Below the pieces are notes generated by a model. It worked only from the letters and a program-made list of their open reading frames with translations, was not told the origin of the DNA and did no database searches. From Ascidia mentula (lineage: Eukaryota; Chordata; Ascidiacea; Phlebobranchia; Ascidiidae): 64,000 bases of DNA. The position numbers and the translations under genes were made by a program. Below, piece by piece: positions 14,201-64,000 of this stretch. Where the stretch lies: contig OX387199.1 in assembly GCA_947561715.1 (NCBI GenBank), positions 439,001-503,000 on the forward strand, given 5' to 3'. The stretch's first letter is position 1; every line of letters starts with the position of its first letter.

Positions 14201-15912
14201 TGATGTGGCAAGTTCCCTTGGTTGAAGGCGTCTCCGCGCTTAGTGGTTGTTTGTTTGTTAAATTCCGGTTAATTTGTTAAGTTTAGCAATTGTTGTTGTT
14301 TCGCTGTTGGCGTTGTCTCGCCGTTATTCATCCGGGGTTCATGGTCATGTCGCTCCCTGACAGTTCCGCTGTCGATCGCCTTCGGCGTGAGATATGAACG
14401 CTCGCCATAGCGTTTCGGCAAGTTCCCTTGGTTGAAGGCGTATCCTCGCTTAGTGGTTGTTTTTTAGTTAAATTCCGGTTAAGTTGTTAAGTTTAGCTGT
14501 TGTTGTTTCGCTGTTGGCGTTGTCTCGCCGTTATTCATCCGGGGTTCATGGTCATGTCGCTCCCTGACAGTTCCGCTGTCGATCGCCTTCAGCGTGAGAT
14601 ATGAACGCTCGCCATAGTGTTTCGGCAAGTTCCCTTGGTTGAAGGCGTATCCTCGCTTAGTGGTTGTTTTTTAGTTAAATTCCGGTTAAGTTGTGAAGTT
14701 TAGCTGTTGTTGTTTCGCTGTTGGCGTTGTCTCGCCGTTATTCATCCGGGGTTCATGGTCATGTCGCTCCCTGACAGTTCCGCTGTCGATCGCCTTCAGC
14801 GTGAGATATGAACGCTCGCCATAGTGTTTCGGCAAGTTCCCTTGGTTGAAGGCGTATCCTCGCTTAGTGGTTGTTTTTTAGTTAAATTCCGGTTAAGTTG
14901 TTAAGTTTAGCTGTTGTTGTTTCGCTGTTGGCGTTGTCTCGCCGCTATTCATCCGGGGTTCATGGTCATGTCGCTCCCTGACAGTTCCGCTGTCGATCGC
15001 CTTCAGCGTGAGATATGAACGCTCGCCATAGCGATGTGGCAAGTTCCCTTGGTTGAAGGCGTCTCCGCGCTTAGTGGTTGTTTGTTTGTTAAATTCCGGT
15101 TAATTTGTTAAGTTTAGCTGTTGTTGTTTCGCTGTTGGCGTTGTCTCGCCGCTATTCATCCGGGGTTCATGGTCATGTCGCTCCCTGACAGTTCCGCTGT
15201 CGATCGCCTTCGGCGTGAGATATGAACGCTCGCCATAGCGATGTGGCAAGTTCCCTTGGTTGAAGGCGTATCCTCGCTTAGTGGTTGTATTTTAGTTAAA
15301 TTCCGGTTAAGTTGTTAAGTTTAGCTGTTGTTGTTTCGCTGTTGGCGTTGTCTCGCCGCTATTCATCCGGGGTTCATGGTCATGTCGCTCCCTGACAGTT
15401 CCGCTGTCGATCGCCTTCAGCGTGAGATATGAACGCTCGCCATAGCGATGTGGCAAGTTCCCTTGGTTGAAGGCGTCTCCGCGCTTAGTGGTTGTTTGTT
15501 TGTTAAATTCCGGTTAATTTGTTAAGTTTAGCTGTTGTTGTTTCGCTGTTGGCGTTGTCTCGCCGCTATTCATCCGGGGTTCATGGTCATGTCGCTCCCT
15601 AGCAGTTCCGCTGTCGATCGCCTTCGACGTGAGATATGAACGCTCGCCATAGTGATGTGGCAAGTTCCCTTGGTTGAAGGCGTCTCCGCGCTTAGTGGTT
15701 GTTTGTTTGTTAAATATCGGGTAATTTGTTAAGTTTAGCAATTGTTGTTGTTTCGCTGTTGGCCTTGTCTCGCCGTTATTCATCCGGGGTTCATGGTCAT
15801 GTCGCTCCCTGGCAGTTCCGCTGTCGATCGCCTTCGGCGTGAGATATGAACGCTCGCCATGGTGATGTGGCAAGTTCCCTTGGTTGAAGGAGTCTCCGCG
15901 CTTAGTGGTTGT
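8262..15912 (+). repeat. 207-bp satellite array, about 37 monomers (left arm)
   Basis: Tandem head-to-tail monomers of about 207 bp. Successive copies of the cgctcgccat landmark lie at about 8381, 8589, 8795, 9002, 9206 and 9417. Each monomer carries a gctgttgttgtttcgctg block, a ccggggttcatggtcatg block, a cgatcg-centred segment and a variable linker (tgtttgtttg, tgttttttag or tgtttttttcttc). Two subtypes alternate, one with gatgtggcaag and one with gtttcggcaag. Monomers are about 95% alike, so the array is young or homogenised. It gives long chance reading frames on the minus strand (119 codons) that are not genes. The same monomer recurs in inverted orientation at 23.7-26.8 kb. Confidence 0.95.
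10325..13590 (+). repeat. Higher-order repeat inside the 207-bp array: 1452 bp, 7 monomers
   Basis: A diagnostic variant linker (cttcaattcgagtaaaattg) occurs at about 10525, 11977 and 13429, spaced exactly 1452 bp (7 x about 207 bp). The minus-strand open frames covering it start at matching offsets (10325, 11777, 13229). Neighbouring monomers follow the same subtype order, so two complete 7-mer units plus the start of a third are present. A related but diverged linker at about 13840 marks where the register breaks. Confidence 0.85.
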
Positions 15913-17029
15913 CTAACCAATATGTTTGTTTGCATTTCTTGTTTTCCATTTGTTTGTCGCTTGCTAGGAAGGTTTGAGGAGTTTACGTGGTGTTTATTTT
16001 AAAACTCTTGCTGAGTTTTTATTCCATCTGGTGGCAATCGTGTTTCCAGAGAGAAAACTTTAAGGTTGTTTTCTGTATATGTTGATGCGTTTATGCTGCT
16101 CCAGTTCTGCACTTAAACAAAAACTTGTTTCTTAGCTTTTTATGCAAAAAATAATGGGAAATAAAACAAGGTTTTTTTGACAAAAAAATTACCTGTGCCA
16201 CCAACAAAATGCAACTGAAATATGCGTAAACAGGATGAGGAAACTATTTGACTTCAACTCGACTCACGATCCTAAAACTATAAAGTCAATATGTCACGTG
16301 TTTATGCCTTTCAATAATCAGATTGTGGAAAATCACCAGCTTAGGGAAACGTATGAATCCAATGATGCTTAACACGTGGAGATGACGTAGCGTGACGTGA
16401 AGCTCTGGTGGAGGAAGCCACAAAACACTGGAATCTAACGATGAAAGGTTCGTCGAAAGGGTTATGGTGGGATTCTTAAATATAAACATGCTGATAAGTT
16501 TTTGCAAATACAATTTGATTTTAACCATTTTAAAAGGAAAATATTTCAGCTTTGTTCAATAAAGGATAAATTAAGTCCCATGGTGAAGTGATGGTCATTA
16601 CGCAGTTTCAAAGCAAAATAATATTATAAGAGAAGGAATTTATTACATCTATTTTCAGGTTCTACGATCTTCGAACACAAAAAAAAGGAATGTCTCCCAA
16701 AATTTATTGCGAAATATTCAATAAAATTTATTTGCTTCGTTTCTGTTGAAGATTTTTAAATGAACTCAACTGGGGTCAATGAGTTCATTTTTGAAACACG
16801 GCAATTCCCGAATGAACTCGTTGACCCCAAAAATGATGCCGAATGAACCCAACTTCTTGTTTGAAACACGGCCACTCAGCAAACAATAATATTAAAACTC
16901 ATTGTTTCATTTATTAGTTTATTTGAAAAAACGCAACAAACTCACTGGCAAAAGCTTCTCAGAAAATGTTGGCATCACTAAAAGTAAATATTGTTCATGA
17001 ATAGAAGCAGAAAATAGTATTTATAGTCG
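15913..17029. other. Unique spacer between two satellite arrays
   Basis: About 1.1 kb of non-satellite sequence following the 207-bp array. I see no coding exon with splice signals. It contains a small inverted-repeat cluster at 16758-16872, listed separately. Confidence 0.6.
16771..16829. repeat. Hairpin-forming inverted repeat
   Basis: tggggtcaatgagttcatt (16771-16789) is the reverse complement of the segment at 16811-16829 with one mismatch in 19, around a 21-bp loop. The neighbouring phrase tttgaaacacggc occurs twice (near 16790 and 16860), and aatgaac-c-aac occurs three times, so this is a compact nest of inverted and direct repeats, perhaps the end of an old inverted-repeat element. 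Confidence 0.6.
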
Positions 17030-23230: not shown

Positions 23231-23689
23231 TATTACAGTATTGACAAGAAGTTTAACTTAGGATCTTAAGATAATTAGTTAGATGCAATAAGTAGACATA
23301 TTCCACTTAATAAATACAAGTTATTGTGAAGTATTAGAATAATCTAGTAAGTAGAATGAAATAAATAACGCGATAATCGAAACCTTTCACTTTCCAATCA
23401 CTAAACCAAACTACAACCTGACACCTTTCACCTCCGACGAGTTAACCTTTAACCCCGTCCCATCCCTCCCCCCAAACAACACAAAACGAAACATTTTATT
23501 TCACAAATCTTTATCATGTCGTCTTCTGGTGGTGATTGGATGAATCTTAAATCCCGAAAATAAATATTTGCCATTTTAAATTCAATAACAAAACATCGCC
23601 ATCAAAGACACAGAAATAGAGCTAAGAAATCAAGTTAGGTTTCAGTGTCCTTACCTCGGAAAGATGAATATCATCTAAACTTGTGAAGC
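23231..23689. other. Short unique spacer with a pyrimidine/C-biased tract
   Basis: Between the AT-rich array and the inverted 207-bp array. The segment about 23380-23500 is strongly strand-asymmetric (long runs rich in C and A, including a ccctcccccc run). No gene seen. Confidence 0.5.
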
Positions 23690-26600
23690 TATGGCGAGCG
23701 TTCATATCTCACGCCGAAGGCGATCGACAGCGGAACTGCCAGGGAGCGACATGACCATGAACCCCGGATGAATAACGGCGAAACAACGCCAACAGCGAAA
23801 CAAAAACAGCTAAACTTAACAACTTAACCAGAATTTAGCAACAAAAAAAACAACCACTAAGCGCGGAGACGTCTTCAACCAAGGGAACTTGCCACATCAC
23901 TATGGCGAGCGTTCATATCTCACGCCGAAGGCGATCGACAGCGGAACTGTCAGGGAGCGACATGACCATGAACCCCGGATGAATAACGGCGAAACAACGC
24001 CAACAGCGAAACAAAAACAGCTAAACTTAACAACTTAACCAGAATTTAGCAACAAAAAAAACAACCACTAAGCGCGGAGACGTCTTCAACCAAGGGAACT
24101 TGCCACATCACTATGGCGAGCGTTCATATCTCACGCCGAAGGCGATCGACAGCGGAACTGTCAGGGAGCGACATGACCATGAACCCCGGATGAATAACGG
24201 TGAAACAACGCCAACAGCGAAACAAAAACAGCTAAACTTAACAACTTAACCAGAATTTAGCAACAAAAAAAACAACCACTAAGCGCGGAGACGTCTTCAA
24301 CCAAGGGAACTTGCCACATCACTATGGCGAGCGTTCATATCTCACGCCGAAGGCGATCGACAGCGGAACTGTCAGGGAGCGACATGACCATGAACCCCGG
24401 ATGAATAACGGCGAAACAACGCCAAAAGCGAGACAACGCCAACAGCGAAACAAAAACAGCTAAACTTAACAACTTAACCATAATTTAACAAAAAAAAACA
24501 ACCACTAAGCGCGGAGACGTCTTCAACCAAGGGAACTTGCCGAAACACTATGGCAAGCGTTCATATCTCACGCTGAAGGCGATCGACAGCGGAACTGCCA
24601 GGGAGCGACATGACCATGAACCCCGGATGAATAACGGCAGGACAATGCAAACAGCGAAACAACAACAGCTAAACCTAACAACTTAACCAGAATTTAACAA
24701 AAAAAAACAACCACTAAGCGCGGAGACGCCTTCAACCAAGGGAACTTGCCGAAACACTATGGCGAGCGTTCATATCTCACGCTTAAGGCGATCGACAGCG
24801 GAACTGTCAGGGAGCGACATGACCATGAACCCCGGATGAATAACGGCGAGACAACGCCAACAGCGAAACAACAACAGCTAAACTTAACAAATTACCCGAT
24901 ATTTAACAAATAAACAACCACTAAGCGCGGAGACGCCTTCAACCAAGGGAACTTGCCGAAACACTATGGCGAGCGTTCATATCTCACGCTTAAGGCGATC
25001 GACAGCGGAACTGTCAGGGAGCGACATGACCATGAACCCCGGATGAATAACGGCGAGACAACGCCAACAGCGAAACAACAACAGCTAAACTTAACAAATT
25101 ACCCGATATTTAACAAATAAACAACCACTAAGCGCGGAGACGCCTTCAACCAAGGGAACTTGCCGAAACACTATGGCGAGCGTTCATATCTCACGCCGAA
25201 GGCGATCGACAGCGGAACTGCCAGGGAGCGACATGACCATGAACCCCGGATGAATAACGGCGAAACAACGCCAAAAGCGAGACAACGCCAACAGCGAAGC
25301 AAAAACAGCTAAACTTAACAACTTAACCAGAATTTAGCAACAAAAAAAACAACCACTAAGCGCGGAGACGTCTTCAACCAAGGGAACTTGCCACATCACT
25401 ATGGCGAGCGTTCATATCTCACGCTGAAGGCGATCGACAGCGGAACTGTCAGGGAGCGACATGACCATGAACCCCGGATGAATAACGGCGAAACAACGCC
25501 AAAAGCGAGACAACGCCAACAGCGAAACAAAAACAGCTAAACTTAACAACTTAACCAGAATTTAACAAAAAAAAACAACCACTAAGCGCGGAGACGCCTT
25601 CAACCAAGGGAACTTGCCGAAACACTATGGCAAGCGTTCATATCTCACGCTAAAGGCGATCGACAGCGGAACTGCCAGGGAGCGACATGACCATGAACCC
25701 CGGATGAATAACGGCAGGACAATGCAAACAGCGAAACAACAACAGCTAAACTTAACAACTTAACCAGAATTTAACAAAAAAAAACAACCACTAAGCGCGG
25801 AGACGCCTTCAACCAAGGGAACTTGCCGAAACACTATGGCAAGCGTTCATATCTCACGCTGAAGGCGATCGACAGCGGAACTGCCCGGGAGCGACATGAC
25901 CATGAACCCCGGATGAATAACGGCAGGACAATGCAAACAGCGAAACAACAACAGCTAAACCTAACAACTTAACCAGAATTTAACAAAAAAAAACAACCAC
26001 TAAGCGCGGAGACGCCTTCAACCAAGGGAACTTGCCGAAACACTATGGCGAGCGTTCATATCTCACGCTTAAGGCGATCGACAGCGGAACTGTCAGGGAG
26101 CGACATGACCATGAACCCCGGATGAATAACGGCGAGACAACGCCAACAGCGAAACAACAACAGCTAAACTTAACAAATTACCCGATATTTAACAAATAAA
26201 CAACCACTAAGCGCGGAGACGCCTTCAACCAAGGGAACTTGCCGAAACACTATGGCGAGCGTTCATATCTCACGCTGAAGGCGATCGACAGCGGAACTGC
26301 CAGGGAGCGACATGACCATGAACCCCGGATGAATAACGGCGAGACAATGCAAACAGCGAAACAACAACAGCTAAACTTAACAACTTAACCAGAATTTAAC
26401 AAAAAAAAACAACCACTAAGCGCGGAGACGCCTTCAACCAAGGGAACTTGCCGAAACACTATGGCAAGCGTTCATATCTCACGCTTAAGGCGATCGACAG
26501 CGGAACTGCCAGGGAGCGACATGACCATGAACCCCGGATGAATAACGGCGAAACAACGCCAAAAGCGAGACAACGCCAACAGCGAAACAAAAACAGCTAA

Positions 26601-26778
26601 ACTTAACAACTTAACCAGAATTTAGCAACAAAAAAAAACAACCACTAACCGCGGAGACGCCTTCAACCAAGGGAACTTGCCGAAACACTATGGCGAGCGT
26701 TCATATCTCACGCCGAAGGCGATCGACAGCGGAACTGTCAGGGAGCGACATGACCATGAACCCCGGAAGAATAACGAC
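23690..26778 (-). repeat. 207-bp satellite array, about 15 monomers, inverted relative to the left arm
   Basis: The reverse complement of the 8.3-15.9 kb monomer. The atggcgagcg landmark falls at 23691, 23902, 24113, 24324, 24550, 24759, 24966 and 25173, giving steps of 211, 211, 211, 226, 209, 207 and 207. The 226 step carries a small internal duplication (extra gcgagacaacgcc). Both subtypes of the left arm (gccacatcac and gccgaaacac in this orientation) are present, so the two arms share a recent history. The array breaks off inside a monomer at about 26778. Confidence 0.95.
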
Positions 26779-29700
26779 GAACTTTCTCTCAAATGTTGAA
26801 ACCATGAATCTAACTTCAATGTTTCTTTCGGTGATCCAAAACGCTCAGAAAAATCCAAAACTCAACCTTAAATACTTCCTCACCAACCAACCAACAACAA
26901 CAATCTGTTCCTGAGTGGAAACATCGCACGCAAGTTGCCTCTCCACGCCGAAAGCGGGATTCTTGATTGGTGCTGGAGGCATCGACGTCACGGAACTCAC
27001 AATTGTGACTCACACGGCGTGGCAAATGTTTTGCCTCACTCGGGGTGTCAAATTTGCATTGTATTTATTCCTAGTTTTTTGGTTTAATTGAGCTAATAAA
27101 CTGTAAACACGTGTACTTTCATGCTAACTTTTGTTTGGTTACGTTTAAACTGTTTACATCCCAGCAAACTCCTGCCATACGCGACCAACGACATAGTGAG
27201 GTGGAAACATTTCCAGATTCGACATTTTAACCATATTTGCTGCATTTCCTTCTCCGATGTTTCAAGAACGCATTTTTTATTCGACAAAGTTGATTTTCTG
27301 ATGCATTTGAAATATTTCAACAACAAAATATCTGCCGTAAAACTATAAGGTTTGCAGGCTTGCCTAATGATCGCGATACGATAGCCATTGCATGAAATAT
27401 GAAATAACTTCTAGCAAATTACTTCAAGTTAAAATCAATCAATTCCTTATCCTGGACACTAATTTCCATTAGGTTTGCTTCATTGTATATAGGCCGGTTT
27501 ACTTGGGTCTTGTTTTATGTGTTGCTGGTACAGCTCGGCGCCTATAGTGGTGGGGAGATTACAAAATATACCCACACCAGATGTCGCAAAATCACAGTCT
27601 GGGCAAAAAAATGGCTTTCATTCATCAAAGTGAAATACTTAACAACTATTTACGCTGAAGCCAAATTGTATATTTGTCTTTCACATAACAATAAAAAACT
27701 TGTTTTGATAAATCATCAATATTAATAATTAGTTGGTCGGCAACAGTCTCTGTTTGTTTTGATCATAGTCGCATTTTCACAGCAATAAATGGAAAATTTT
27801 GCAACAAGAAAAACACAATATTTTAATGAACAAAACAATCGAATTTCTGCAAGACGGTCAAAGAGTAAAAAACAATTGAACAGAACACACATCACCCTGC
27901 TGTGGAAAGAAACAACATCAAATATCACAAAGTTAAGCGTCCCTAAGTTTGTGGGAGAAGTTTATCCGCAATAATTTAGTTTCGACATGAGTTGTGTAAA
28001 TCATAACTATAGAATCACTTGTTATCACTGCAATATCATCAGCTTCTCCGGGCACTAACAGTGCGCTTAGCGGGTCAATGTGAGGCCACAAAAAGGAGTC
28101 ACTGCTCCAGACAAAGAAATCATTGCGACATGAAACTTCTCCGCCGGATTCAAAATCACCATTAGCAACGGATTGCAACAGACATGACGAGCTTGCTTAA
28201 AATACACAATGGGTCACGGATCATTTGACACAACCACAAAAAGTATCTTCTCTGCTTGTTTGCATTCCCGTTGTTCACTCTTCCATGCTAATCACTCATC
28301 CGTCACAATATTGTCGGAAGAATCCACGCGCGCCTAAATCATAATTCCATGACATCAGTTGTTAAACGATGACGTCATAAAAAATATTGGTCAATAGAAG
28401 AAATACAACCTACAAGCTATTAATACATCTTGTTGTAAGAGAGAACTTTATTGTTGGATTATGGTTGAACTTGTTGAAAAATTATAATACTCAGTTGTTG
28501 TAAGATGATGTTTTATTGCAAATCTCTTCCACAGAGAACTTATACAGTTGTAATACATTGGAGAGGAACGTGGAATTGCAATAGAGGAGGGCGCCATACT
28601 TTCCCTTAACCCAAAATCTAGTTTGTGATGAACATTATTGATCGTCTGCAAACACCCAGTGTTCGTGACACAAAACACGACGAACGCTTCTTTAAAGACA
28701 ACATACTTCCGCTTCAGCCAGGCGCTTAAGTGACACCACAATTAATCAACTGTTGCGTCATAGGAGAGATGCAGACAAACTCTGGTTCATTTGGACAATT
28801 ATTTCCAGTATTTGGAAAGCAATGCTGACATTTAGCGATATTTGTTCATAGCTGCTGAGATGCAAGTTGAGACTACAGCTGAGGTGAAGTGATTATGTTG
28901 GTTACATTCTGCAGGCAACATGTTGAAACTTACGACTTTCAAACCGGGTCGGGGTTTAATGTTGCATCACAGAGTGCAGCATGCTGTTTTGGCCTGAAAC
29001 AAATAAAAACTATGGAGCTTGCAAGTTATGTGTTTCTATTTAAATGATCCAACCACGGTGCTCGTCAGCGCAATATACAGTTGTTTGTCATTAGGTAAAA
29101 AGTTACGTTTGGGCTGTTTTTTATTCAAGTTGCTGATGTCAGGGCTTTGTTCTTTGTATGGAAATGATCAACAAAGTTATAAACAAAAACCATGACACGT
29201 CACGTAGTTGTGTCACGTAAGTCAGACATGTCATGCCACGTTTCACAGTTGGCCATGATCGTGCCATGGCACATCACGTTAAGGTTAGTTTTGTCAACAT
29301 ATGGAAGGATCAATTGGTTGAACGTCGGTGGAGAAGGAAGGTTGGATTTCATAACAAGTGATGAACCTTTGTTTTTCATAGAAATGAAAAAACTAAACCG
29401 TAAATTATTCTTCACTGTCGTAAAAGAATAATTGCAACAGATGTGAAGCAAAATTATGGAATCCTGAACTTTAAGGCGTGCCAGGAATGTTACAGTCTTA
29501 TACTCGTGTATTTTGTTAAACATGTTCGTCACTTGTGGTTTTGTGGTAATTGATTTTCCAATCAGGAGCAAACCACAATCAAACGTGTAATTTTCACAGA
29601 GTTTTCGAAACAAATATATTGATAAGCAAAAATTTGACATGTGAAGCCAATGATATAATTATGTGAGCTGCAGACAGATGGCCACTGTGTCGGTCTTATA

Positions 29701-50796: not shown

Positions 50797-51232
50797 ATAA
50801 TGTGGGTTGGGCCCAGATTTCAGTTATGGTGTAGCCTGGAAGCATTAAATACTCTAATGTGGGTTGGGCCTAGATTTCAGTTGTGGTGTAGTCTGGAAGC
50901 ATTAAATACTCTAATGTGGGTTGGGCCCAGATTTCAGTCATGGTGTAGCGTGGAAGCATTAAATACTCTAATGTGGGTTGGGCCTAGATTTCAGTTGTGG
51001 TGTAGTCTGGAAGCATTAAATACTCTAATGTGGGTTGGGCCCAGATTTCAGTCATGGTGTAGCGTGGAAGCATTAAATACTCTAATGTGGGTTGGGCCTA
51101 GATTTCAGTTATGGTGTAGCCTGGAAGCATTAAATACTCTAATGTGGGTTGGGTCCAGATTTCAGTGATGGTGTAGCGTGGAAGCATTAAATAATCTAAT
51201 GTGGGTTGGGCCTAGATTTCATTTATGGGGTA
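50797..51232 (+). repeat. 57-bp tandem repeat, about 7.6 copies
   Basis: Unit atgtgggttgggcc + tagatttcagttatggtgtag + cctggaagcattaaatactcta. Repeats begin near 50800 and 50858, and so on. A period of 57 (19 codons) leaves a plus-strand frame open for 129 codons, which I regard as chance. It abuts the outer edge of the 42-bp array. Confidence 0.92.
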
Positions 51233-51236
51233 ACAC

Positions 51237-54200
51237 TAATTTACGGAATAAGGAACCTAAGGAATCTAAGGAAACTCACACTAATTTACGGAGCTAAGGA
51301 ACTAAGGAACCTAAGGAAATTCACAGACACTAATTTACGGAGCTAAGGAACGGAAATAGTCTAAGGAAAATACACGCTGCTTACGGAACTGGCCAAGGGC
51401 GTCTAAGGAAAATATATTGAGCTTACGGAACTAACCAAGGGCGTCTAAGGAAAGTAGATAGAGCTTACGGAATTGGCGAAAGGCGTCTAAGGAAAATATA
51501 TTGAGCTTACGGAACTGGTCAAGGGCGTCTAAGGAAAGTAGATAGAGCTCACGGAATTGGCGAAAGGCGTCTAAGGAAAATATATTGAGCTTACGGAACT
51601 GGTCAAGGGCGTCTAAGGAAAGTAGATAGAGCTCACGGAATTGGCGAAAGGCGTCTAAGGAAAATATATTGAGCTTACGGAACTGGTCAAGGGCGTCTAA
51701 GGAAAGTAGATAGAGCTTACGGAATTGGCGAAAGGCGTCTAAGGAAAATATATTGAGCTTACAGAACTGGTCAAGGGCGTCTAAGGAAAGTAGATAGAGC
51801 TCACGGAATTGGCGAAAGGCGTATAAGGAAAATATATTGAGCTTACGGAACTGGTCAAGGGCGTCTAAGGAAAGTAGATAGAGCTTACGGAACTGACCAA
51901 GGGCGTCTAAGGAAAGTAGATAGAGCTCACGGAATTGGCGAAAGGCGTCTAAGGAAAATATATTGAGCTTACGGAACCGACAAAGGGCGTGTAAGGAAAG
52001 TAGATAGAGCTTACGGAACTGGCAAAGGGCGTCTAAGGAAACTAGTTAGAGCTCACGGAATTGGCGAAAGGCGTCTAAGGAAAGTAGATAGAGCTTACGG
52101 AACTGACCAAGGGCGTCTAAGGAAAGTAGATAGAGCTTACGGAACTGACCAAGGGCGTCTAAGGAAAGTAGATAGAGCTTACGGAACTGGCAAAGGCGTC
52201 TAAGGAAAGTAGATAGAGCTTACGGAACTGACCAAGGGAGTCTAAGGAAAGTAGATAGTGCTTACGGAACTGGCAAAGGGCGTCTAAGGAAAATATATCG
52301 ATCTTACGGAACTGGTCAAGGGCGTCTAAGGAAAGTAGATAGAGCTTACGGAATTGGCGAAAGGCGTCTAAGGAAAATATATTGAGCTTACGGAACTGGT
52401 CAAGGGCGTCTAAGGAAAGTAGATAGAGCTCACGGAATTGGCGAAAGGCGTCTAAGGAAAATATATTGAGCTTACGGAACTGACCAAGGGCGTCTAAGGA
52501 AAGTAGATAGAGCTCACGGAATTGGCGAAAGGCGTCTAAGGAAAATATATTGAGCATACGGAACTGGTCAAGGGCGTCTAAGGAAAGTAGATAGAGCTTA
52601 CGGAACTGACCAAGGGCGTCTAAGGAAAGTAGATAGAGCTCACGGAATTGGCAAAGGGCGTCTAAGGAAAATATATCGAGCTTACGGAACCGACAAAGGG
52701 CGTCTAAGGAAAGTAGATAGAGCTTACGGAACTGACCAAGGGCGTCTAAGGAATGTAGATAGAGCTCACGGAACTGGCCTATGGCGTCTAAGGAAAATAT
52801 ATCGAGCTTACGGAACCGACAAAGGGCGTCTAAGGAAAGTAGATAGAGCTTACGGAACTGACCAAGGGCGTCTAAGGAAAGTAGATAGAGCTCACGGAAT
52901 TGGCAAAGGGCGTCTAAGGAAAATATATCGAGCTTACGGAACTGGCAAAGGGCGTCTAAGGAAAATATATAGAGCTTACGGAACTGACCAAGGGCGTCTA
53001 AGGAAAGTAGATAGAGCTCACGGAATTGGCAAAGGGCGTCTAAGGAAAATATATCGAGCTTACGGAACCGACAAAGGGCGTCTAAGGAAAGTAGATAGAG
53101 CTTACGGAACTGACCAAGGGCGTCTAAGGAAAGTAGATAGAGCTTACGGAACTGGCAAAGGCGTCTAAGGAAAGTAGATAGAGCTTACGGAACTGACAAA
53201 GGGCGTCTAAGGAAAGTAGATAGTGCTTACGGAACTGGCAAAGGGCGTCTAAGGAAAGTAGATAGAGCTTACGGAATTGGCGAAAGGCGTCTAAGGAAAA
53301 TATATTGAGCTTACGGAACTGGTCAAGGGCGTCTAAGGAAAGTAGATAGAGCTCACGGAATTGGCGAAAGGCGTCTAAGGAAAATATATTGAGCTTACGG
53401 AACTGGTCAAGGGCGTCTAAGGAAAGTAGATAGAGCTCACGGAATTGGCGAAAGGCGTCTAAGGAAAGTAGATAGAGCTCACGGAATTGGCGAAAGGCGT
53501 CTAAGGAAAATATATTGAGCTTACGGAACCGACAAAGGGCGTCTAAGGAAAGTAGATAGAGCTTACGGAACTGGCAAAGGGCGTCTAAGGAAAATATATC
53601 GAGCTTACGGAACTGACCAAGGGCGTCTAAGGAAACTAGTTAGAGCTCACGGAATTGGCGAAAGGCGTCTAAGGAAAGTAGATAGAGCTTACGGAACTGA
53701 CCAAGGGCGTCTAAGGAAAGTAGATAGAGCTTACGGAACTGACCAAGGGCGTCTAAGGAAAGTAGATAGAGCTTACGGAACTGACCAAGGGCGTCTAAGG
53801 AAAATATATTGAGCTTACGGAACCGACAAAGGGCGTCCAAGGAAAGTAGATAGAGCTTACGGAACCGGCAAAGGGCGTCTAAGGAAAATATATCGAGCTT
53901 ACGGAACTGACCAAGGGCGTCTAAGGAAACTAGTTAGAGCTCACGGAATTGGCGAAAGGCGTCTAAGGAAAGTAGATAGAGCTTACGGAACTGACCAAGG
54001 GCGTCTAAGGAAAGTAGATAGAGCTTACGGAACTGACCAAGGGCGTCTAAGGAAAGTAGATAGAGCTTACGGAACTGGCAAAGGCGTCTAAGGAAAGTAG
54101 ATAGAGCTTACGGAACTGACCAAGGGCGTCTAAGGAAAGTAGATAGTGCTTACGAAACTGGCAAAGGGCGTCTAAGGAAAATATATCGATCTTACGGAAC

Positions 54201-57200
54201 TGGTCAAGGGCGTCTAAGGAAAGTAGATAGAGCTTACGGAATTGGCGAAAGGCGTCTAAGGAAAATATATTGAGCTTACGGAACTGGTCAAGGGCGTCTA
54301 AGGAAAGTAGATAGAGCTCACGGAATTGGCGAAAGGCGTCTAAGGAAAATATATTGAGCTTACGGAACTGGTCAAGGGCGTCTAAGGAAAGTAGATAGAG
54401 CTCACGGAATTGGCGAAAGGCGTCTAAGGAAAATATATTGAGCATACGGAACTGGTCAAGGGCGTCTAAGGAAAGTAGATAGAGCTTACGGAACTGACCA
54501 AGGGCGTCTAAGGAAAGTAGATAGAGCTCACGGAATTGGCAAAGGGCGTCTAAGGAAAATATATCGAGCTTACGGAACCGACAAAGGGCGTCTAAGGAAA
54601 GTAGATAGAGCTTACGGAACTGACCAAGGGCGTCTAAGGAATGTAGATAGAGCTCACGGAACTGGCCTATGGCGTCTAAGGAAAATATATCGAGCTTACG
54701 GAACCGACAAAGGGCGTCTAAGGAAAGTAGATAGAGCTTACGGAACTGACCAAGGGCGTCTAAGGAAAGTAGATAGTGCTCACGGAATTGGCAAAGGGCG
54801 TCTAAGGAAAATATATCGAGCTTACGGAACTGGCAAAGGGCGTCTAAGGAAAATATATAGAGCATACGGAACTGGTCAAGGGCGTCTAAGGAAAGTAGAT
54901 AGAGCTCACGGAATTGGCGAAAGGCGTCTAAGGAAAATATATTGAGCATACGGAACTGGTCAAGGGCGTCTAAGGAAAGTAGATAGAGCTTACGGAACTG
55001 ACCAAGGGCGTCTAAGGAAAATATATCGAGCTTACGGAACCGACAAAGGGCGTCTAAGGAAAGTAGATAGAGCTTACGGAACTGACCAAGGGCGTCTAAG
55101 GAATGTAGATAGAGCTCACGGAACTGGCCTATGGCGTCTAAGGAAAATATATAGAGCTTACGGAACTGGCCAAAGGCGTCTAAGGAAAATATATCGAGCT
55201 TACGGAACTGGCAAAGGGCGTCTAAGGAAAATATATAGAGCTTACGGAACTGACCAAGGGCGTCTAAGGAAAGTAGATAGAGCTTACGGAACTGACCAAG
55301 GGCGTCTAAGGAAAGTAGATAGAGCTTACGGAACTGACCAAGGGCGTCTAAGGAAAGTAGATAGAGCTCACGGAATTGGCAAAGGGCGTCTAAGGAAAAT
55401 ATATCGAGCTTACGGAACCGACAAAGGGCGTCTAAGGAAAGTAGATAGAGCTTACGGAACTGACCAAGGGCGTCTAAGGAATGTAGATAGAGCTCACGGA
55501 ACTGGCCTATGGCGTCTAAGGAAAATATATAGAGCTTACGGAACTGGTCAAGGGCGTCTAAGGAAAGTAGATAGAGCTTACGGAATTGGCGAAAGGCGTC
55601 TAAGGAAAATATATTGAGCTTACGGAACTGGTCAAGGGCGTCTAAGGAAAGTAGATAGAGCTCACGGAATTGGCGAAAGGCGTCTAAGGAAAATATATTG
55701 AGCTTACGGAACTGGTCAAGGGCGTCTAAGGAAAGTAGATAGAGCTCACGGAATTGGCGAAAGGCGTCTAAGGAAAATATATTGAGCATACGGAACTGGT
55801 CAAGGGCGTCTAAGGAAAGTAGATAGAGCTTACGGAACTGACCAAGGGCGTCTAAGGAAAGTAGATAGAGCTCACGGAATTGGCAAAGGGCGTCTAAGGA
55901 AAATATATCGAGCTTACGGAACCGACAAAGGGCGTCTAAGGAAAGTAGATAGAGCTTACGGAACTGACCAAGGGCGTCTAAGGAATGTAGATAGAGCTCA
56001 CGGAACTGGCCTATGGCGTCTAAGGAAAATATATCGAGCTTACGGAACCGACAAAGGGCGTCTAAGGAAAGTAGATAGAGCTTACGGAACTGACCAAGGG
56101 CGTCTAAGGAAAGTAGATAGTGCTCACGGAATTGGCAAAGGGCGTCTAAGGAAAATATATCGAGCTTACGGAACTGGCAAAGGGCGTCTAAGGAAAATAT
56201 ATAGAGCTTACGGAACTGGTCAAGGGCGTCTAAGGAAAGTAGATAGAGCTCACGGAATTGGCGAAAGGCGTCTAAGGAAAATATATTGAGCATACGGAAC
56301 TGGTCAAGGGCGTCTAAGGAAAGTAGATAGAGCTTACGGAACTGACCAAGGGCGTCTAAGGAAAATATATCGAGCTTACGGAACCGACAAAGGGCGTCTA
56401 AGGAAAGTAGATAGAGCTTACGGAACTGACCAAGGGCGTCTAAGGAATGTAGATAGAGCTCACGGAACTGGCCTATGGCGTCTAAGGAAAATATATAGAG
56501 CTTACGGAACTGGCCAAAGGCGTCTAAGGAAAATATATCGAGCTTACGGAACTGGCAAAGGGCGTCTAAGGAAAATATATAGAGCTTACGGAACTGACCA
56601 AGGGCGTCTAAGGAAAGTAGATAGAGCTTACGGAACTGACCAAGGGCGTCTAAGGAAAGTAGATAGAGCTTACGGAACTGACCAAGGGCGTCTAAGGAAA
56701 GTAGATAGAGCTCACGGAATTGGCAAAGGGCGTCTAAGGAAAATATATCGAGCTTACGGAACCGACAAAGGGCGTCTAAGGAAAGTAGATAGAGCTTACG
56801 GAACTGACCAAGGGCGTCTAAGGAATGTAGATAGAGCTCACGGAACTGGCCTATGGCGTCTAAGGAAAATATATAGAGCTTACGGAACTGGCCAAAGGCG
56901 TCTAAGGAAAATATATCGAGCTTACGGAACTGGCCAAAGGCGTCTAAGGAAAATATATCGAGCTTACGGAACCGACAAAGGGCGTCTAAGGAAAGTAGAT
57001 AGAGCTTACGGAACTGACCAAGGGCGTCTAAGGAAAATAGATAGAGCTTACGGAACTGGCCAAAGGCGTCTAAGGAATGTAGATAGAGCTCACGGAACTG
57101 GCAAAGGGCGTCTAAGGAAAGTAGATATAGCTTACGGAACTGGCAAAGGGCGTCTAAGGAAAATATATAGAGCTTACGGAACTGACCAAGGGCGTCTAAG

Positions 57201-57640
57201 GAAAGTAGATAGAGCTCACGGAATTGGCAAAAGGCGTCTAAGGAAAGTAGATAGAGCTTACGGAACTGGCAAAAGGCGTCTAAGGAAAGTAGATAGAGCT
57301 TACGGAACTGACCAAGGGCGTCTAAGGAAAGTAGATAGAGCTTACGGAACTGACCAAAGGCGTCTAAGGAAAATATATCGAGCTTACGGAACTGGCAAAG
57401 GGCGTCTAAGGAAAATATATCGAGCTTACGGAACCGACCAAGGGCGTCTAAGGAAAATAGATAGAGCTTACGGAACTGGCCAAAGGCGTCTAAGGAAAGT
57501 AGATAGAGCTTACGGAACTGACCAAGGGCGTCTAAGGAAAGTAGATAGTGCTTACGGAACTGGCAAAGGGCGTCTAAGGAAAGTAGATAGAGCTTACGGA
57601 ACTGGCAAAGGGCGTCTAAGGAAAGTAGATAGTGCTTACG
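51237..57640 (+). repeat. 42-bp repeat array, about 150 copies (left arm)
   Basis: Unit ggcgtctaaggaaagtagat + agagcttacggaactgacca + ag. Two main subtypes differ in the middle (aaagtagatagagc versus aaaatatatcgagc) and in ggaattggcgaaa versus ggaactgaccaag. The outer 180 bp (51237-51420) are degenerate and shorter-period (ctaaggaac...tttacgga). Because 42 is a multiple of three and the unit has no stop in one minus-strand frame, an uninterrupted 748-codon frame of a 14-residue repeat (SLDALGQFRKLYLL) arises at 54047-56293; no start context or splice evidence supports a gene. Confidence 0.95.
54241..56889 (+). repeat. 1344-bp higher-order duplication (32 x 42 bp) within the left arm
   Basis: The variant agcatacgg occurs at 54441 and 55785, and at 54945 and 56289, both pairs exactly 1344 bp apart. 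Sequences line up from about 54241/55585 until they diverge at about 55545/56889. A recent block duplication of 32 monomers. Confidence 0.8.
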
Positions 57641-57934
57641 GAACTTTTTCGTAACGCATTACTCAAAAGGTAAGTTTAATGATAAAACCAGGTTTGATTC
57701 ACGTTGATCTTTTTTTGTTTTATACATGCCCAATTCATATTGAGAAAAATGTGGCTTGAAAAACCTAAATACTTATAATGTTTTGTTTTCTGTTTTGAAA
57801 ACAAGACACAGTAAAATTAAAAACGATCGGCGTGAATCATGCCCTTTAACGACCTGTTAAAGCAACAGCACTGCACTCTGATACATTACATTTACGATTG
57901 TCAACATACAATAAATATTGTCTTGTTTACTGTT

Positions 57935-59304
57935 ACGCATTTTAACTATATTTTTTCACCGCAAAATACCTGAATTACAAACTAAATCATGCTCTAAGGA
58001 AGTGACGAAATCGGTAGAACGACGTATATGGAAGTCTTCTTTTTACCCAAGTGTAACCGAATTACAATGTAAATGATTTTGGAATTGATTTTTTTAGTTC
58101 AAATATAGGGGGAGACCGGGGATACCTCGGACACGGGGATACCTCGGACCAGGTATTTTACGTCACAATTAGGTATTGTTAAGACACTTTTGCAAGAGCT
58201 TTATGTTTCCATCAAACGTGAACAGGGACTTTGGAATTAAATCATGTATGCTTAAAAAGTTATAATCGAAAAAGTCAATTTATCAGTGAAACCAAGTTTT
58301 TCAATTTGTATGTGTAAGGCTATATATCTGTCACAGTTAATCAAAATGCAGTAATTTTGGGTTGATTGCATAATCAAATATGTATTCTTGGACAGGCCAA
58401 TGATGATTTTGTGTAACCTTTAAAAATACGGCCATAGTTTAAGAATTTCTATGTCGTCACGTGGTCGGGGATACTTCGGACATCATGGCAAAAAATCGCG
58501 AGAAGGCAACAATTTTTGAGTTTTATGAAAGATTATCGGTGATAGAAGAGAATAAACAGAGGCTGGATGAAATGATTGAACTTTGGCAGTAAGAAAAAGC
58601 CCCAAAGATAAAAAATCGTTTGTTGACTCTAAAATCTATGATATCCGTGCTGCCGTTAAATATACACGATTTACCCAAAGTATGAATGTGTGGAAGGGTC
58701 GAAACGATAAGTGGCCACGCCCCGATTCCTGAAAGCTTGAAAGATATTTTATGCGCTAATGCCCCAATGCTGATATTGCGCCAAGTTTGATTTCAGTTAT
58801 TTGTTAAATACACAAAAAAAACGTCTGATAAAACTTGCTGTCCGAGATATCCCCAGTCACGTCCGATGTTACCCCCGTACCGGGGTGACTTCGGACATTT
58901 GAGACCTGTTTAAAAAATGGGCTGAATAAACATTTTTAGTGAGCTAAAACGAACGAAAAACCTTTTGTTTTTTGAGTAATGCTTTACTACTTGCAATAAA
59001 ATAAAGTTTAAGAATGTGGTTCATAATTTAAAAAAAATATTAGCAATTTTCCCAAAACCGTCCGAGCTATCCCCGGTCTCCCACTACGGCACAGTTGGAA
59101 GTTGTATGGAGTTACGCATCTTAACTATATTTTTTCACCGCAAAATACCTGAATTACAAACTAAATCATGCTCTAAGGAAGTGACGAAATCGGTAGAACG
59201 ACGTATATGGAAGTCTTCTTTTTACCCAAGTGTAACCGAATTACAATGTAAATGATTTTGGAATTGATTTTTTTAGTTCAAATATACGGCACAGTTGGAA
59301 GTTG
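57935..59304 (+). repeat. Tandem duplication of about 190 bp, first copy split by a transposon
   Basis: gcat(t/c)ttaactatattttttc and the following roughly 170 bp occur at about 57937-58107 and again at about 59112-59286, nearly identical. Downstream of each, cggcacagttggaagttg also repeats (59087 and 59287). In the first copy the sequence is interrupted at a TA by the 977-bp element; in the second it is continuous. Confidence 0.85.
58108..59084. mobile_element. 977-bp non-autonomous DNA transposon, TA target duplication
   Basis: Terminal inverted repeats of about 25 bp: gggggagaccggggatacct at the left, and at the right the reverse complement of gtgggagaccggggatagct, both continuing cggac. 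It is flanked by TA on both sides (58106-58107 and 59085-59086). The empty site (aaatatacggcac) is preserved in the duplicate copy at about 59280. The word ggggatac(c/t)tcgga recurs inside both ends (near 58137 and 58470, and inverted near 58845). A short plus-strand frame from 58484 (MAKNREKATIFEFYERL) may be a remnant of a protein. Too little remains to name the superfamily; TA duplication fits Tc1/mariner-pogo kin. Confidence 0.85.
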
Positions 59305-60082
59305 CAGCATAATGGAAAACAGTGGTATTATAGCAGAGCAAACATAACTTCGTGCTTTTTAATACAAACTGATGGATCGGGTTCAGAAGGGTCGTGGAAT
59401 TACACTCGGCTAGGAAAAATTAAGAAACACACACTACTTTTTGAAACAATAAAACAACGATGCGGAAAAAGCAAAAGCCAAAGACTACATTTGGATTGGA
59501 AAACGACTTGACAGATAATAAATCGGCGAAACGAGGGTGGGACTGTTGCAGACTCTGCGTGAGTTTAATCAAAACCAGAGAAAACGAGGAACCAATTGAA
59601 GAAGTAGAATGACGGATCGGGGAGGGCCGTGTGAACGGACTCGGTAGGGAAGAATTCAATGTCAATAAGACAAAAGAATCTTGCATAGTAATTGTGGGCA
59701 ACCTCCTTTTGTTCCAGTTCGTGGTTCTCGCAATACGTTTTGAACGTGCAGATATTAAAGCTACCTTCAGGATAGTCCTAGAGTTTTAAACCCTTTGTGG
59801 TCATAGATTGTAGCCGAAGTAACTGACATTCGCTGTTTTTAACTGTAGGCAAACTGTGACTGCCACGTAAGCGTAGTACAGCAATTTTATTTACTTGTAA
59901 AAAGTAAATTTCAAGTTTAGACTAACGTATAATTTACAAAAGGCGAAGTTTTACGTAAGAAACATAATGCGATATAGAACTTGAGGTTTGCTTGTAGTAG
60001 TTCAGAGGTTTGTTGTGATCAACTTACTATCCTTTTTGTGTTGGTACCTATTACTGCAGTTACGTATAAGCAAACTACTACA

Positions 60083-63000
60083 ATGTCAGTAAAACTGTTA
60101 AAACTCGGCAATGCCCCGTTGTCTTTTGACGAAGCCAAACAACTACTCCGGTCTCCAAAAGATATTGCAAATTTTCCAGCTGTGAAGCCCAGAGCTGGGT
60201 TTGGTTATTTCTTTCAAGGTACATCAGAAAAATTTAGAAATGACTTAATTGTGATCAGTACCGATTTTACGCCGACGGTCAGCATACCAACAAAGGTGTG
60301 CTAAAGAGGTACTACAAGGTGAAAGATTCTGACCAAGCGGGAAGAAGCGTTTCATCGGCGTTTCAGCGACACGTGTTCACATTGCGTGGTAGCGAAGTTT
60401 CCCCACCCGTGTGCCTTGTGCATTATCTTGGGGACGAAACAGTTCACGTGGATTCAACTCATGGAAATGCCAAAAAGAAAACAGGTTTATACTTTCCCAC
60501 CTTAAAAACAGTGATGAGTGAAATTAGACAGAAAGTAGAAACTAAAACACCGAAGAATGTGTACGATGATTTGCAAGTTGAGAAAAGTCATGAGGACCAA
60601 TCGCGAATGCCTGTCGATCGCCCACGGGATAGAAAACAATGTGAAAACGTGCAACAATCAGAATCGACACGAAGAAAGTTCTCCAACGACGAATACTTCA
60701 GTACTCTTGAATTGGCAATACAAACCGGTACGTTTGTTCGTCAATTTACAGTTTATCCCGAACTAGTTATTCATTTGGGCAGTGAAGCAATATTATCAAC
60801 AACCAAACAGCTAATTCAACTTTCAGCAAAGTGTGGAAATCTGAAGCAAGTGATTTCCTATGATACAACATTTCTGTTGGGAGACTATTACGTTTCCGTG
60901 TTAGTTGCACGACAAACGCAATTGGAAGGTGATTCAATCTTTCCTGTGGCTTTTCTCATCCATGAAAGAAAGTTTTTGAAACACCACCGAGATTTTTTAA
61001 GAGACATCTTTCCGGCAATTGGATTTACCAGATCCCAAAACGTTCCCGTTGTAACAGACAGAGAAAAGGGGATTACAAAATGTTTAAAGTCACATTTTCC
61101 AAAATTGACCAATGTCTACTGCACAAACCATATTCTCAGAGATGTTGAATTCTGGCTGAAGAAATGCGGCGACAAAGAAGACATTAAAGTACTTAAAGAT
61201 GATGTTTCTAGACTGATAGACTGTGAAACCGAAGAAAGATTCAGCAAGTTATATAAAATTTTATCCAGTACGTGGTCGTTGCCATTTCTTGCTTATATAA
61301 AAACAACTGTATGATGATTTACTGTTGCATGCCTGTCGGTTTGTAACAAACAGGTTTGCAGCATTTTCCGATGGTTTGGTTACTACAAACAATATCAGTG
61401 AGAGTATGAACCATGTCATTAAAGCAGCCACGGAACACAAACAACTCCCTTTCGATGTGATTGTTATGATTTTTAGACAAATTCAAGACATATACCAATA
61501 CGATTTCGTTAGAGCATTGACTGGTTTTGGAAATTACCAACTGAAAAAAGAATTCATGTCGCTCCTGCAACCGCGGACAGACGTTGTCTTGCCACCGATT
61601 GTCAGCATGAAGCAAGTCGTGCACAATATTCTTTCTTCAGACGAGCCTATTCCTTGTACTGTGGAAAAAGGTACTTCTTTCAGGACGACTCAGCGTGCCA
61701 TGGCCCGTCTATGCGTACAAAGAGGTTTGGTTGGGTTTTCTTCCGCTACTTCATCCTTCTCTGTGATGAACCCTTTCGGGGGAGATGTTCACAGCGTGAA
61801 ATACTTTCCGAAGCCATCGAAATGTTCCTGTCCGAGTACAGGTCGATGCTACCACATTTTCGCAGTTCAAATGGCATTGAAGGAACCTGATGTCAACACG
61901 AAGGACAGGGAAAAGTATTCACTGTCTTTATTAGTAAAAAGAAGCAAGGGCAGAGAACGAAAGTCTGGGTCAAAACGTCCTCGTCAAAAAGATTATGACT
62001 ACGACGTTGATCCAGCACCCGATGCCCCTTTTCCACTGGACAGAAGCTCAATTAATCCTGTTGCTACCTCGACACCCAAAAAGAAGAGACGTCCTGACTC
62101 CATCAGTCTACTGGAGGTTTCAGACTCTTTCATAATAGATGAATTTTCCATGAATGAGACTTTGTCAGTTTCGCATGACTATACAACAGATATTGCTATT
62201 GAACATGGTGATATTGTTTCACCGTATCCCTGGGAGGAATATACTGAAACTGATTTCGTTTCAGTAAAAACCGGTCGAATTGCTGTCATTTCCGAATGTC
62301 TTCGTGGCTCCAATTGGCTTAATGACGAAGTGATTGAAACGGCCATCAAATCCTTTGTCAGTTGTGACGAGAGTTTTCTTCTGTGGGATTCCTGTTTTGT
62401 TCAGTTGGCGGCCAAACACATGCACGAGGCCATAAGCGGTTATGCTTGTCACAATGAAGCTCTTAACCACGATAATTATGTATTTCTTGTCAACCCTGGA
62501 GCACACTGGTTTATTGTTGTAGCCAACCTAAAAGAAAAACAAGTGATCTGCATCGACTCATTGATGTCTTTGACGTCGGAACCAAAACTAGAGTCCATAT
62601 TGTTAGATATATTTCAAATAATTAATGCAACTTTTGCCGTTGGTTCTGCATCAACAATGCTGCATCAACAACGGAATGGAACTTCTACAGGTGCCCAGAC
62701 GTTCCACAGCAAAAAAATTCATACGACTGCGGCGTACATGCAGTAGCAAATGCCTACTGCATTATCAACAAGCTCCAACTGCCTATCGAATTGCCATCAT
62801 CAAAGACCAGAAATTGGATTGCTAATGTCATCGCCAGTTCAGATAAATCACCAACAAAGACCAAGTCAAGAATCAAAATTGCTGAAGCAAGCGAAGCTGC
62901 AGAAAGAAATTGGTTGCCATCACACACCAAAATCACTGTCGGGGAAATAGAAGTGAAAAAAATGTTCCAAACCGAAGAAACAACAAGAGAAAACTGGAAG

Positions 63001-63156
63001 ATATGCGATGCACTTAAATGCCCGGGAAACAAGGAAACTGTTTTGCAGTTATTTTGCGTTTCGTGCAGAAAGTGGTTCCACAAAACTTGCCTCCCTGGTA
63101 AAGTTGCCGCCAAAGCAGGAACGTACTTTTCGTGCACAAAGGAATTAACAAGTTAG
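60083..63156 (+). pseudogene. MULE transposase with SWIM finger, Ulp1/C48 protease and PHD-like finger (frame changes)
   Basis: A transposase-sized coding region of about 1020 codons, read in four successive blocks separated by three frame changes (near 60245, 61310 and 62650-62680). In order: an N-terminal block (SVKLLKLGNAPLSFDEA, KGVLKRYYKV); a DDE core with VISYDTTF (first D), VPVVTDREKGI (second D), the Mutator hallmark CTNH in YCTNHILRDVEFWL, and TTNNISESMNHVIK (E); a SWIM zinc finger KCSCPSTGRCYH; basic nuclear-import-like KKKRRPDS; a Ulp1-type protease with WLNDEVI, GAHWFIVVANL (His), VICIDSL (Asp) and PQQKNSYDCGVHAVA (Gln, Cys); and a PHD-like CVSCRKWFHKTC. The frame changes suggest the copy is no longer intact, though sequencing error is possible. 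Strand and position place it inside the inverted 42-bp arms. KDZ-type elements also combine SWIM and Ulp1 domains; the CxxH core favours Mutator. Confidence 0.85.
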
Positions 63157-63385
63157 ACAAAACAACTTTAGTAAAACACATGTTAAGCACACGTTAAAAT
63201 ACAGTAGGCCCAACCAATATGTTTGTATCATTTTGCGCTGTCCCAGTTAATAATTTTGTAAGGTGCATCTTTTTCAATTCGTTTTTTTTTCATTGTATTT
63301 AATAAAATTTGCAATGAACGTTCAATCGGTGTAAATGAATTTCAATACTTACAGATAACTTATGTACAAGCTCAATATTTGTCGG
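63157..63385. other. 3' flank of the transposase with poly(A) signal
   Basis: AT-rich, with AATAAA at 63301-63306, 145 bp after the transposase stop, then a transition into decayed 42-bp copies. Confidence 0.5.
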
Positions 63386-64000
63386 TTCCGTAAGCTCAAT
63401 ATATTTTCCTCAGACGCCTTTCGCCAATTCCGTGAGCTCTATCTACTTTCCTTAGACGCCCTTGGTCAGTTCCGTAAGCTCTGTCTACTTTCCTTAGACG
63501 CCCTTGACCAGTTCCGTAAGCTCAATATATTTTCCTTAGACGCCTTTCGCCAATTCCGTGAGCTCTATCTACTTTCCTTAGACGCCCTTGACCAGTTCCG
63601 TAAGCTCAATATATTTTCCTTAGACGCCTTTCGCCAATTCCGTAAGCTCTATCTACTTTCCTTAGACGCCCTTGACCAGTTCCGTAAGCTCAATATATTT
63701 TATTTAGACGCCTTTCGCCAATTCCGTGAGCTCTATCTACTTTCCTTATACGCCCTTGGTCAGTTCCGTAAGCTCTATCTACTTTCCTTAGACGCCCTTG
63801 ACCAGTTCCGTAAGCTCAATATATTTTCCTTAGACGCCTTTCGCCAATTCCGTAAGCTCTATCTACTTTCCTTAGACGCCCTTGACCAGTTCCGTATGCT
63901 CAATATATTTTCCTTAGACGCCTTTCGCCAATTCCGTGAGCTCTATCTACTTTCCTTAGACGCCCTTGACCAGTTCCGTAAGATCGATATATTTTCCTTA
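63386..64000 (-). repeat. 42-bp repeat array, inverted (right arm), continues beyond the window
   Basis: Repeats of ttccgtaagctcaatatatt + ttccttagacgcctttcgcca, the exact reverse complement of the left-arm unit, with the same two subtypes alternating. About 14-15 copies before the window ends. The innermost copy is degenerate (tgtacaagctcaatatttg). Confidence 0.93.

Follow-up and report, generated by a model that had tools for sequence, protein, structure and literature searches.

The block of inverted 42-bp repeats at the right-hand end of the window, i.e. the whole 64,000-nucleotide stretch of Ascidia mentula DNA that was analysed (C52:439,001–503,000), is with a probability of about 0.92 a Foldback-type Mutator-like DNA transposon. 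It is 14,292 bp long and extends from window position 51,228 to 65,519 (C52:490,228–504,519), its last 1.5 kb lying past the window edge; it is called hereafter the home element. Its Foldback plan is seen in inverted, tandem-repeat arms of variable length, in the existence of members with a short core or none, and in target duplications. Its Mutator-like (MULE) nature is seen in a PF10551 transposase and in duplications of 8 bp, inside the 8–11 bp range expected for MULEs, which commonly make 9 bp (in part after PMC3169594). Relatives were searched in 195.8 Mb of the genome, distributed over 79 contigs. This genome gave two GH6 matches, where 14 control genomes had none, in keeping with a tunicate, the animal group that GH6 marks.

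Ends, arms and insertion site of the home element

The same tip, GGGTAACACTAATTTACGGA, is present at both ends of the home element, and the outermost 150 bp are identical between left and right. The left terminal domain (51,228–51,378, plus strand) is made of 36–49-bp imperfect repeats, and its mirror image, the right terminal domain, follows the right arm and ends at C52:504,519. Immediately outside lies a perfect 8-bp target duplication, CATTTATG, with its left copy at 51,220–51,227 (plus strand) and its right copy at C52:504,520–504,527, outside the window. The target was a tandem array of 57-bp units (TRF, 50,798–51,232, plus strand) that continues past the right end of the element; once joined, the two flanks show a single mismatch in 71 relative to a unit of this array. 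Because the duplication and the joined flanks restore a unit of the 57-bp array, the block is one insertion. A reading of the window made earlier from the sequence only had proposed that an outer right end and an 8–11 bp duplication framing the block be sought, and both were found. The block that it described does exist, with the 42-bp repeat running opposite ways on its two sides, as seen both by TRF and in the genome sequence to the right, but it starts at 51,228 instead of 51,237 and ends 1,519 bp past the window.

Between the terminal domains and the core are the arms. The left arm (51,379–57,645, plus strand) contains 149.3 copies of the 42-bp unit according to TRF; the right arm (63,385–64,000 in the window, minus strand) is an inverted array of which TRF counts 14.7 copies inside the window, and which runs on to C52:504,368. 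The arms are therefore unequal, with 149 units (6.3 kb) on the left and 47 units in total (2.0 kb) on the right. The sequence-only reading had put the left arm at some 150 units and 6.4 kb; calling it unusually large needs care, for Tetris-derived arrays of Drosophila virilis reach up to 66 copies of a 220-bp unit (in part after PMC4079207).

The left arm grew by recent block duplication. About 31 of its units were recently duplicated internally, two runs of 15 identical units are found at a step of 32 units, and 1.5-kb stretches of the 42-bp array share 95–96% identity with each other. Arms were also compared by size-matched draws. The home right arm was nearest to the home left arm in 71% of draws, and the home left arm was nearest to the array at C1:26.83 Mb in 50% and to the home right arm in 45%. 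For a second two-armed element, at C52:22.55 Mb, the left arm was nearest to its own right arm in 73% of draws, but the right to its own left in only 38%. Exchange or copying between arms (homogenisation) may have taken place, and is only partly supported. We also considered whether the 42-mer arose from the terminal repeat and discarded the idea: the match is weak, its score being reached by 15 of 2000 shuffles, and it corresponds to the partial unit at the border.

The terminal 150 bp are conserved among copies: those of the home left end, the home right end and C1:26.83 Mb are identical, and the four ends of the elements at C2 and C52:22.55 Mb share at least 98.7% identity with them. An 18-base pattern of the tip gave 87 matches in the genome at two mismatches or fewer, versus 12 for a backwards control, and 29 of the 87 were exact. 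Among the matches with two mismatches, some fall on repeats inside these very ends; a C71 group (GCAACAGTAATTTACGGA) is another, related-looking repeat. On this contig, C71:14,640,151–14,640,650 (locus L062) and similar places carry a related-looking tip, GGCAACAGTAATTTACGGAACAAGG, with nine variant-tip matches in all; at L062, no 42-bp unit was present in the 500 bp read beside it. The variant tip is possibly that of a sister family with simple ends.

A second foldback candidate in the window, with a 207-bp unit (8,255–15,915; inverted at 23,688–26,781), was rejected, as it has no common ends and forms single-orientation arrays elsewhere (C73:9.89 Mb, C73:14.99 Mb and C52:5.42 Mb). The 207-bp array and its inverted copy are about 91% identical, and flank a 169-bp AT-rich array.

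Core and transposase gene

The core (57,646–63,384, plus strand) lies between the two arrays, and its borders with the two arms fall at one position of the unit (GGAAC / GTTCC). It contains a secondary insertion (58,109–59,076, no strand assigned) with ends GGGAGACCGGGGATA and a TA duplication, both recognised by eye, of which a 95% identical copy is present on C72. Beside it, the segment 57,932–58,100 is duplicated at 59,111–59,279.

The sequence-only reading had placed a Mutator-superfamily transposase between the arms, and the profile search agrees: the open stretch at 60,244–61,314 (plus strand) matches the MULE domain PF10551 with an E value of 2.3e-7 and 31.6 bits, above the cut-off of 27.6. 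An upstream piece of the transposase is in a different frame (59,978–60,304, plus strand). Downstream, the frame changes again for the stretch 61,301–62,746 (plus strand), which holds the transposase's C-terminal portion and the beginning of an Ulp1-like (C48) domain, and the last stretch (62,626–63,156, plus strand), in the third frame position, holds the rest of the C48 domain and a PHD-finger-like end. The C48 match is above cut-off for the last piece and just below it for the preceding one (19.5 for a cut-off of 20.7); the PHD-finger-like end is below cut-off, and a distant signal of the IS256 family is far below its own. The home gene is spread over four open stretches that overlap, its frame changes at least three times, and no intact transposase is encoded. 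With its gene broken, the home copy has probably lost its autonomy.

The only intact transposase ORF seen belongs to a distant sister on C71 (C71:15,047,501–15,050,900, locus L063, ORF 509–3073 on the minus strand). This MULE-like ORF of 854 aa covers the transposase and extends into the first part of the C48 region, its C-terminus resembles Ulp1, and it shares 40 and 36% identity with the two main home stretches. In the alignment of the home and sister proteins, the Asp-Asp-Glu positions (SYDTTF, VVTDRE/VVVDRE, NNISES) and a SWIM-like CxC..CxH stretch were recognised by eye. With E values as large as 10 allowed, a search for FLYWCH matched neither the sister nor the home pieces, in which a frame change interrupts the N-terminus.

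The N-terminus of the sister gave a weak match, at E 0.0025 and 18.0 bits (below the cut-off of 23.5), to the CG-1 domain that CAMTA transcription factors carry. A search of the genome with the CG-1 family returned one place, likely the CAMTA gene on C67, and no transposases. A single match below threshold is therefore what hints at CG-1 in a transposase. A CG-1 domain common to the transposase and to CAMTA would merit a fold comparison.

Arm-bearing copies in the genome

Querying the genome with the array letters gave at least 65 matches which, together with the loci read, correspond to at least 13 places with 10 units or more. This list is incomplete, for one of the 13 was absent from the matches and emerged when a locus was read. 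Among the arrays found, all 13 with at least 10 units have the tip (0–3 mismatches in 20) at their outer end, and in all 13 the units run the same way with respect to the tip. In these arrays the 42-mer behaves as a transposon arm rather than as a free satellite. Free arrays spread over the genome, away from inversions and from the transposon, would have spoken against the sequence-only reading; among the matches listed, a tip stood behind every one of the 13 arrays.

Three of these 13 arrays are two-armed: the home element (149/47 units), one on C2 (8/19) and the one at C52:22.55 Mb (33/26). The last two, of 1.45 kb (C2:9,388,068–9,389,522) and 2.8 kb (C52:22,553,187–22,555,984), are coreless; their arms meet directly, out of phase, and each element is flanked by its own perfect 8-bp duplication. 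Copies inverted around no core, which the earlier reading had suggested looking for, therefore exist, but of copies inverted around transposase coding sequence, which it had suggested as well, the home element with its broken gene is the only one found. Shorter still, a MITE-like insertion of 0.3 kb on C70 has the same tips and a perfect 8-bp duplication; its copies on that contig are a single insertion because they have common flanks. The element at C1:20.01 Mb is of the same MITE-like form.

Two further arrays (2/13) have two ends and one arm. At C1:12.258 Mb, the second end (C1:12,258,238) is degraded, with 6/8 positions of the duplication and 9/20 of the tip; it was the only one obtained when second ends of one-sided copies were searched at 12 loci by duplication and tip. 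At C52:5.26 Mb, querying with the terminal domain afterwards revealed a truncated left end. Seven of the 13 arrays, of up to 72 units, show a single end within the roughly 5.7–8.7 kb read past the array. One-sided copies were compared by eye for equal duplications, which an inversion would have left as a trace, and no pair was found. The array at C72:9.945 Mb, one of the 13, is split by an insert of 8,277 bp (locus L023, 1217–9493) with LTR-like direct repeats of 384 bp, 90% identical.

On C67 at 12.52 Mb (locus L020, around 8423–9003), a one-sided 42-bp arm is enclosed by inverted 340-bp copies (88%) of the sequence that flanks it, and has perhaps inserted into another inverted-repeat element. 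On the same contig at 7.43 Mb, where two copies of one locus are present, just 22 bp of the tip are left between pieces of the repeated target; by eye, this looks like an imprecise excision.

Duplications were compared for seven two-ended elements. Four had all 8 positions identical (home, C2, C52:22.55 Mb and C70), and the others had 7/8 (C69:11.34 Mb), 6/8 (C69:3.59 Mb) and 3/8 (C1:20.01 Mb). Transposition of the family is shown by these 8-bp duplications. We infer from the domain and from the 8-bp stagger that it was probably catalysed by a MULE of the home type.

Origin of the element and comparison with known systems

Is the core part of the transposon? Among the copies found, arms and transposase coding sequence occur together in the home element only. 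Most transposase relatives are without 42-bp arms (close ones on C2 and at C52:13.73 Mb had no 42-bp unit in the 6.0 and 3.4 kb read), and most arm copies are without a core, as would be expected if a coreless foldback had been moved by an unrelated transposase and a separate MULE gene, not the mover of the arms, had been inserted or captured later. Whether NOF inside FB is a separate insertion is likewise an old question. We consider such a late capture improbable here. The core borders on either arm at one position of the unit, and by eye the junctions show no terminal inverted repeat or target duplication of a separate insertion. Moreover, the left-core segment is found in both contexts. 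It recurs beside 42-bp units on C69, with 78% identity over 546 bp across the junction (one copy read), in a degraded foldback copy represented by seven matches at C69:21.59–21.65 Mb (locus L061 included); as these are mostly about 9.2 kb apart, the copy sits in a tandemly multiplied segment. It also precedes, in rearranged form, the transposase of the armless copy at C2:19.22 Mb. Since the left core adjoins arms in one place and transposase in the other, arms, left core and transposase had been joined before the home insertion.

Two other explanations deny that the arrays moved at all. An ordinary 42-bp satellite could have been inverted by chance around a MULE; 7 of the 13 arrays do show one end only, and the 207-bp arrays of the window are inverted as well without being transposons. 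We judge this very unlikely, and it is refuted for the four separate insertions that have perfect 8-bp duplications; a tip stands behind all 13 long arrays found, whereas the 207-bp arrays share no ends and keep a single orientation elsewhere. Even less credible is an artefact of assembly or scaffolding that mirrored one array. Long tandem arrays are hard to assemble, but the two arms differ in length and unit content, distinct flanks carry the duplication, copies of less than 3 kb show the same plan, and the published matching assembly is HiFi-based with a QV of 64.9 (in part after PMC11109543).

With a Foldback-type Mutator-like transposon as the preferred explanation, we propose that the transposase would recognise the terminal domain, and perhaps also the 42-bp units, cut the element out and paste it with an 8-bp stagger. 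Arm length would shift by unequal exchange and by copying during the repair of excision gaps, and this repair may also delete cores, giving rise to coreless, hairpin-like elements and to short, MITE-like ones, both moved in trans. By analogy with Galileo, as discussed in a part of PMC4079207, the 42-mers may be serial transposase-binding sites. The home gene, with its three or more frame changes, and the single-ended state of 7 of the 13 arrays count against a living autonomous element.

The transposon may seed satellite DNA, as the sequence-only reading had suggested, though every long array found retains one tip or more. A bolder view would make the element a self-expanding satellite vehicle, in which the 42-bp units are serial binding sites, gap repair copies units within arms and from one arm to the other, each of the seven single-ended arrays (up to 72 units) represents a stage of arm release, and the transposase may carry a CG-1-like domain. 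We regard it as doubtful. If true, an arm cut off from its partner would become a stand-alone satellite, in a chordate.

The plan of a Foldback-type MULE was already known, and its stages are unusually clear in this one genome. Foldback elements that still hold a transposase between their arms are few, and here a full series is present, with a copy combining arms and transposase, coreless hairpin-like elements, one-ended arrays and MITE-like remnants, in which target duplications mark real insertions. How arms grow, how cores are lost and how an arm would turn into a satellite could be tested directly by comparing individuals and related ascidians, which belong to the sister group of vertebrates. 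A literature search for foldback elements in tunicates or ascidians, most subscription journals lying outside its scope, returned nothing on point.

In Drosophila, FB and FB-NOF elements have kilobase-long inverted arms of short repeats, a simpler outer zone and, in a rare member, a MULE-related gene in the core. The sequence-only reading took them as its precedent, rightly so in that a Foldback plan and a Mutator-class gene are both present here. The likeness extends to variable arm length and coreless members (as cited in parts of PMC3169594 and PMC4079207). The unit lengths and sequences differ, and the two are likened by plan, not by NOF sequence. The TU elements of sea urchins are Foldback elements of deuterostomes with inverted ends built of repeats. 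It is in these two respects, host and repeat-built inverted ends, that the Ascidia element resembles them, by their description as cited in a part of PMC4079207.

The Tetris/TIR-220 elements of D. virilis likewise have an outer terminal domain followed by tandem repeats within the terminal inverted repeat, duplications of 8–10 bp, satellite-like arrays derived from arms and short, MITE-like derivatives. They differ in that, within the part of PMC4079207 used here, no transposase-bearing Tetris was found, and in that their arrays escaped into long satellite arrays, an escape not seen for the 42-mer. Finally, Tm1 of root-knot nematodes, a Mutator/Foldback element, has a 14-bp motif, 9-bp duplications and a transposase of the Phantom type with a FLYWCH domain, the Phantom subclass being defined by an N-terminal FLYWCH zinc finger and a MULE domain (in part after PMC3169594). 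The Ascidia element has instead a 42-bp unit, arms of up to 6.3 kb, 8-bp duplications and an Ulp1-like domain after a transposase in which FLYWCH was not found. The two are alike in their composite, foldback-like ends of variable length with tandem motifs, in a MULE transposase carried by a rare member, in MITE-like non-autonomous members, and in a low copy number and decayed state (for Tm1, in part after PMC3169594).
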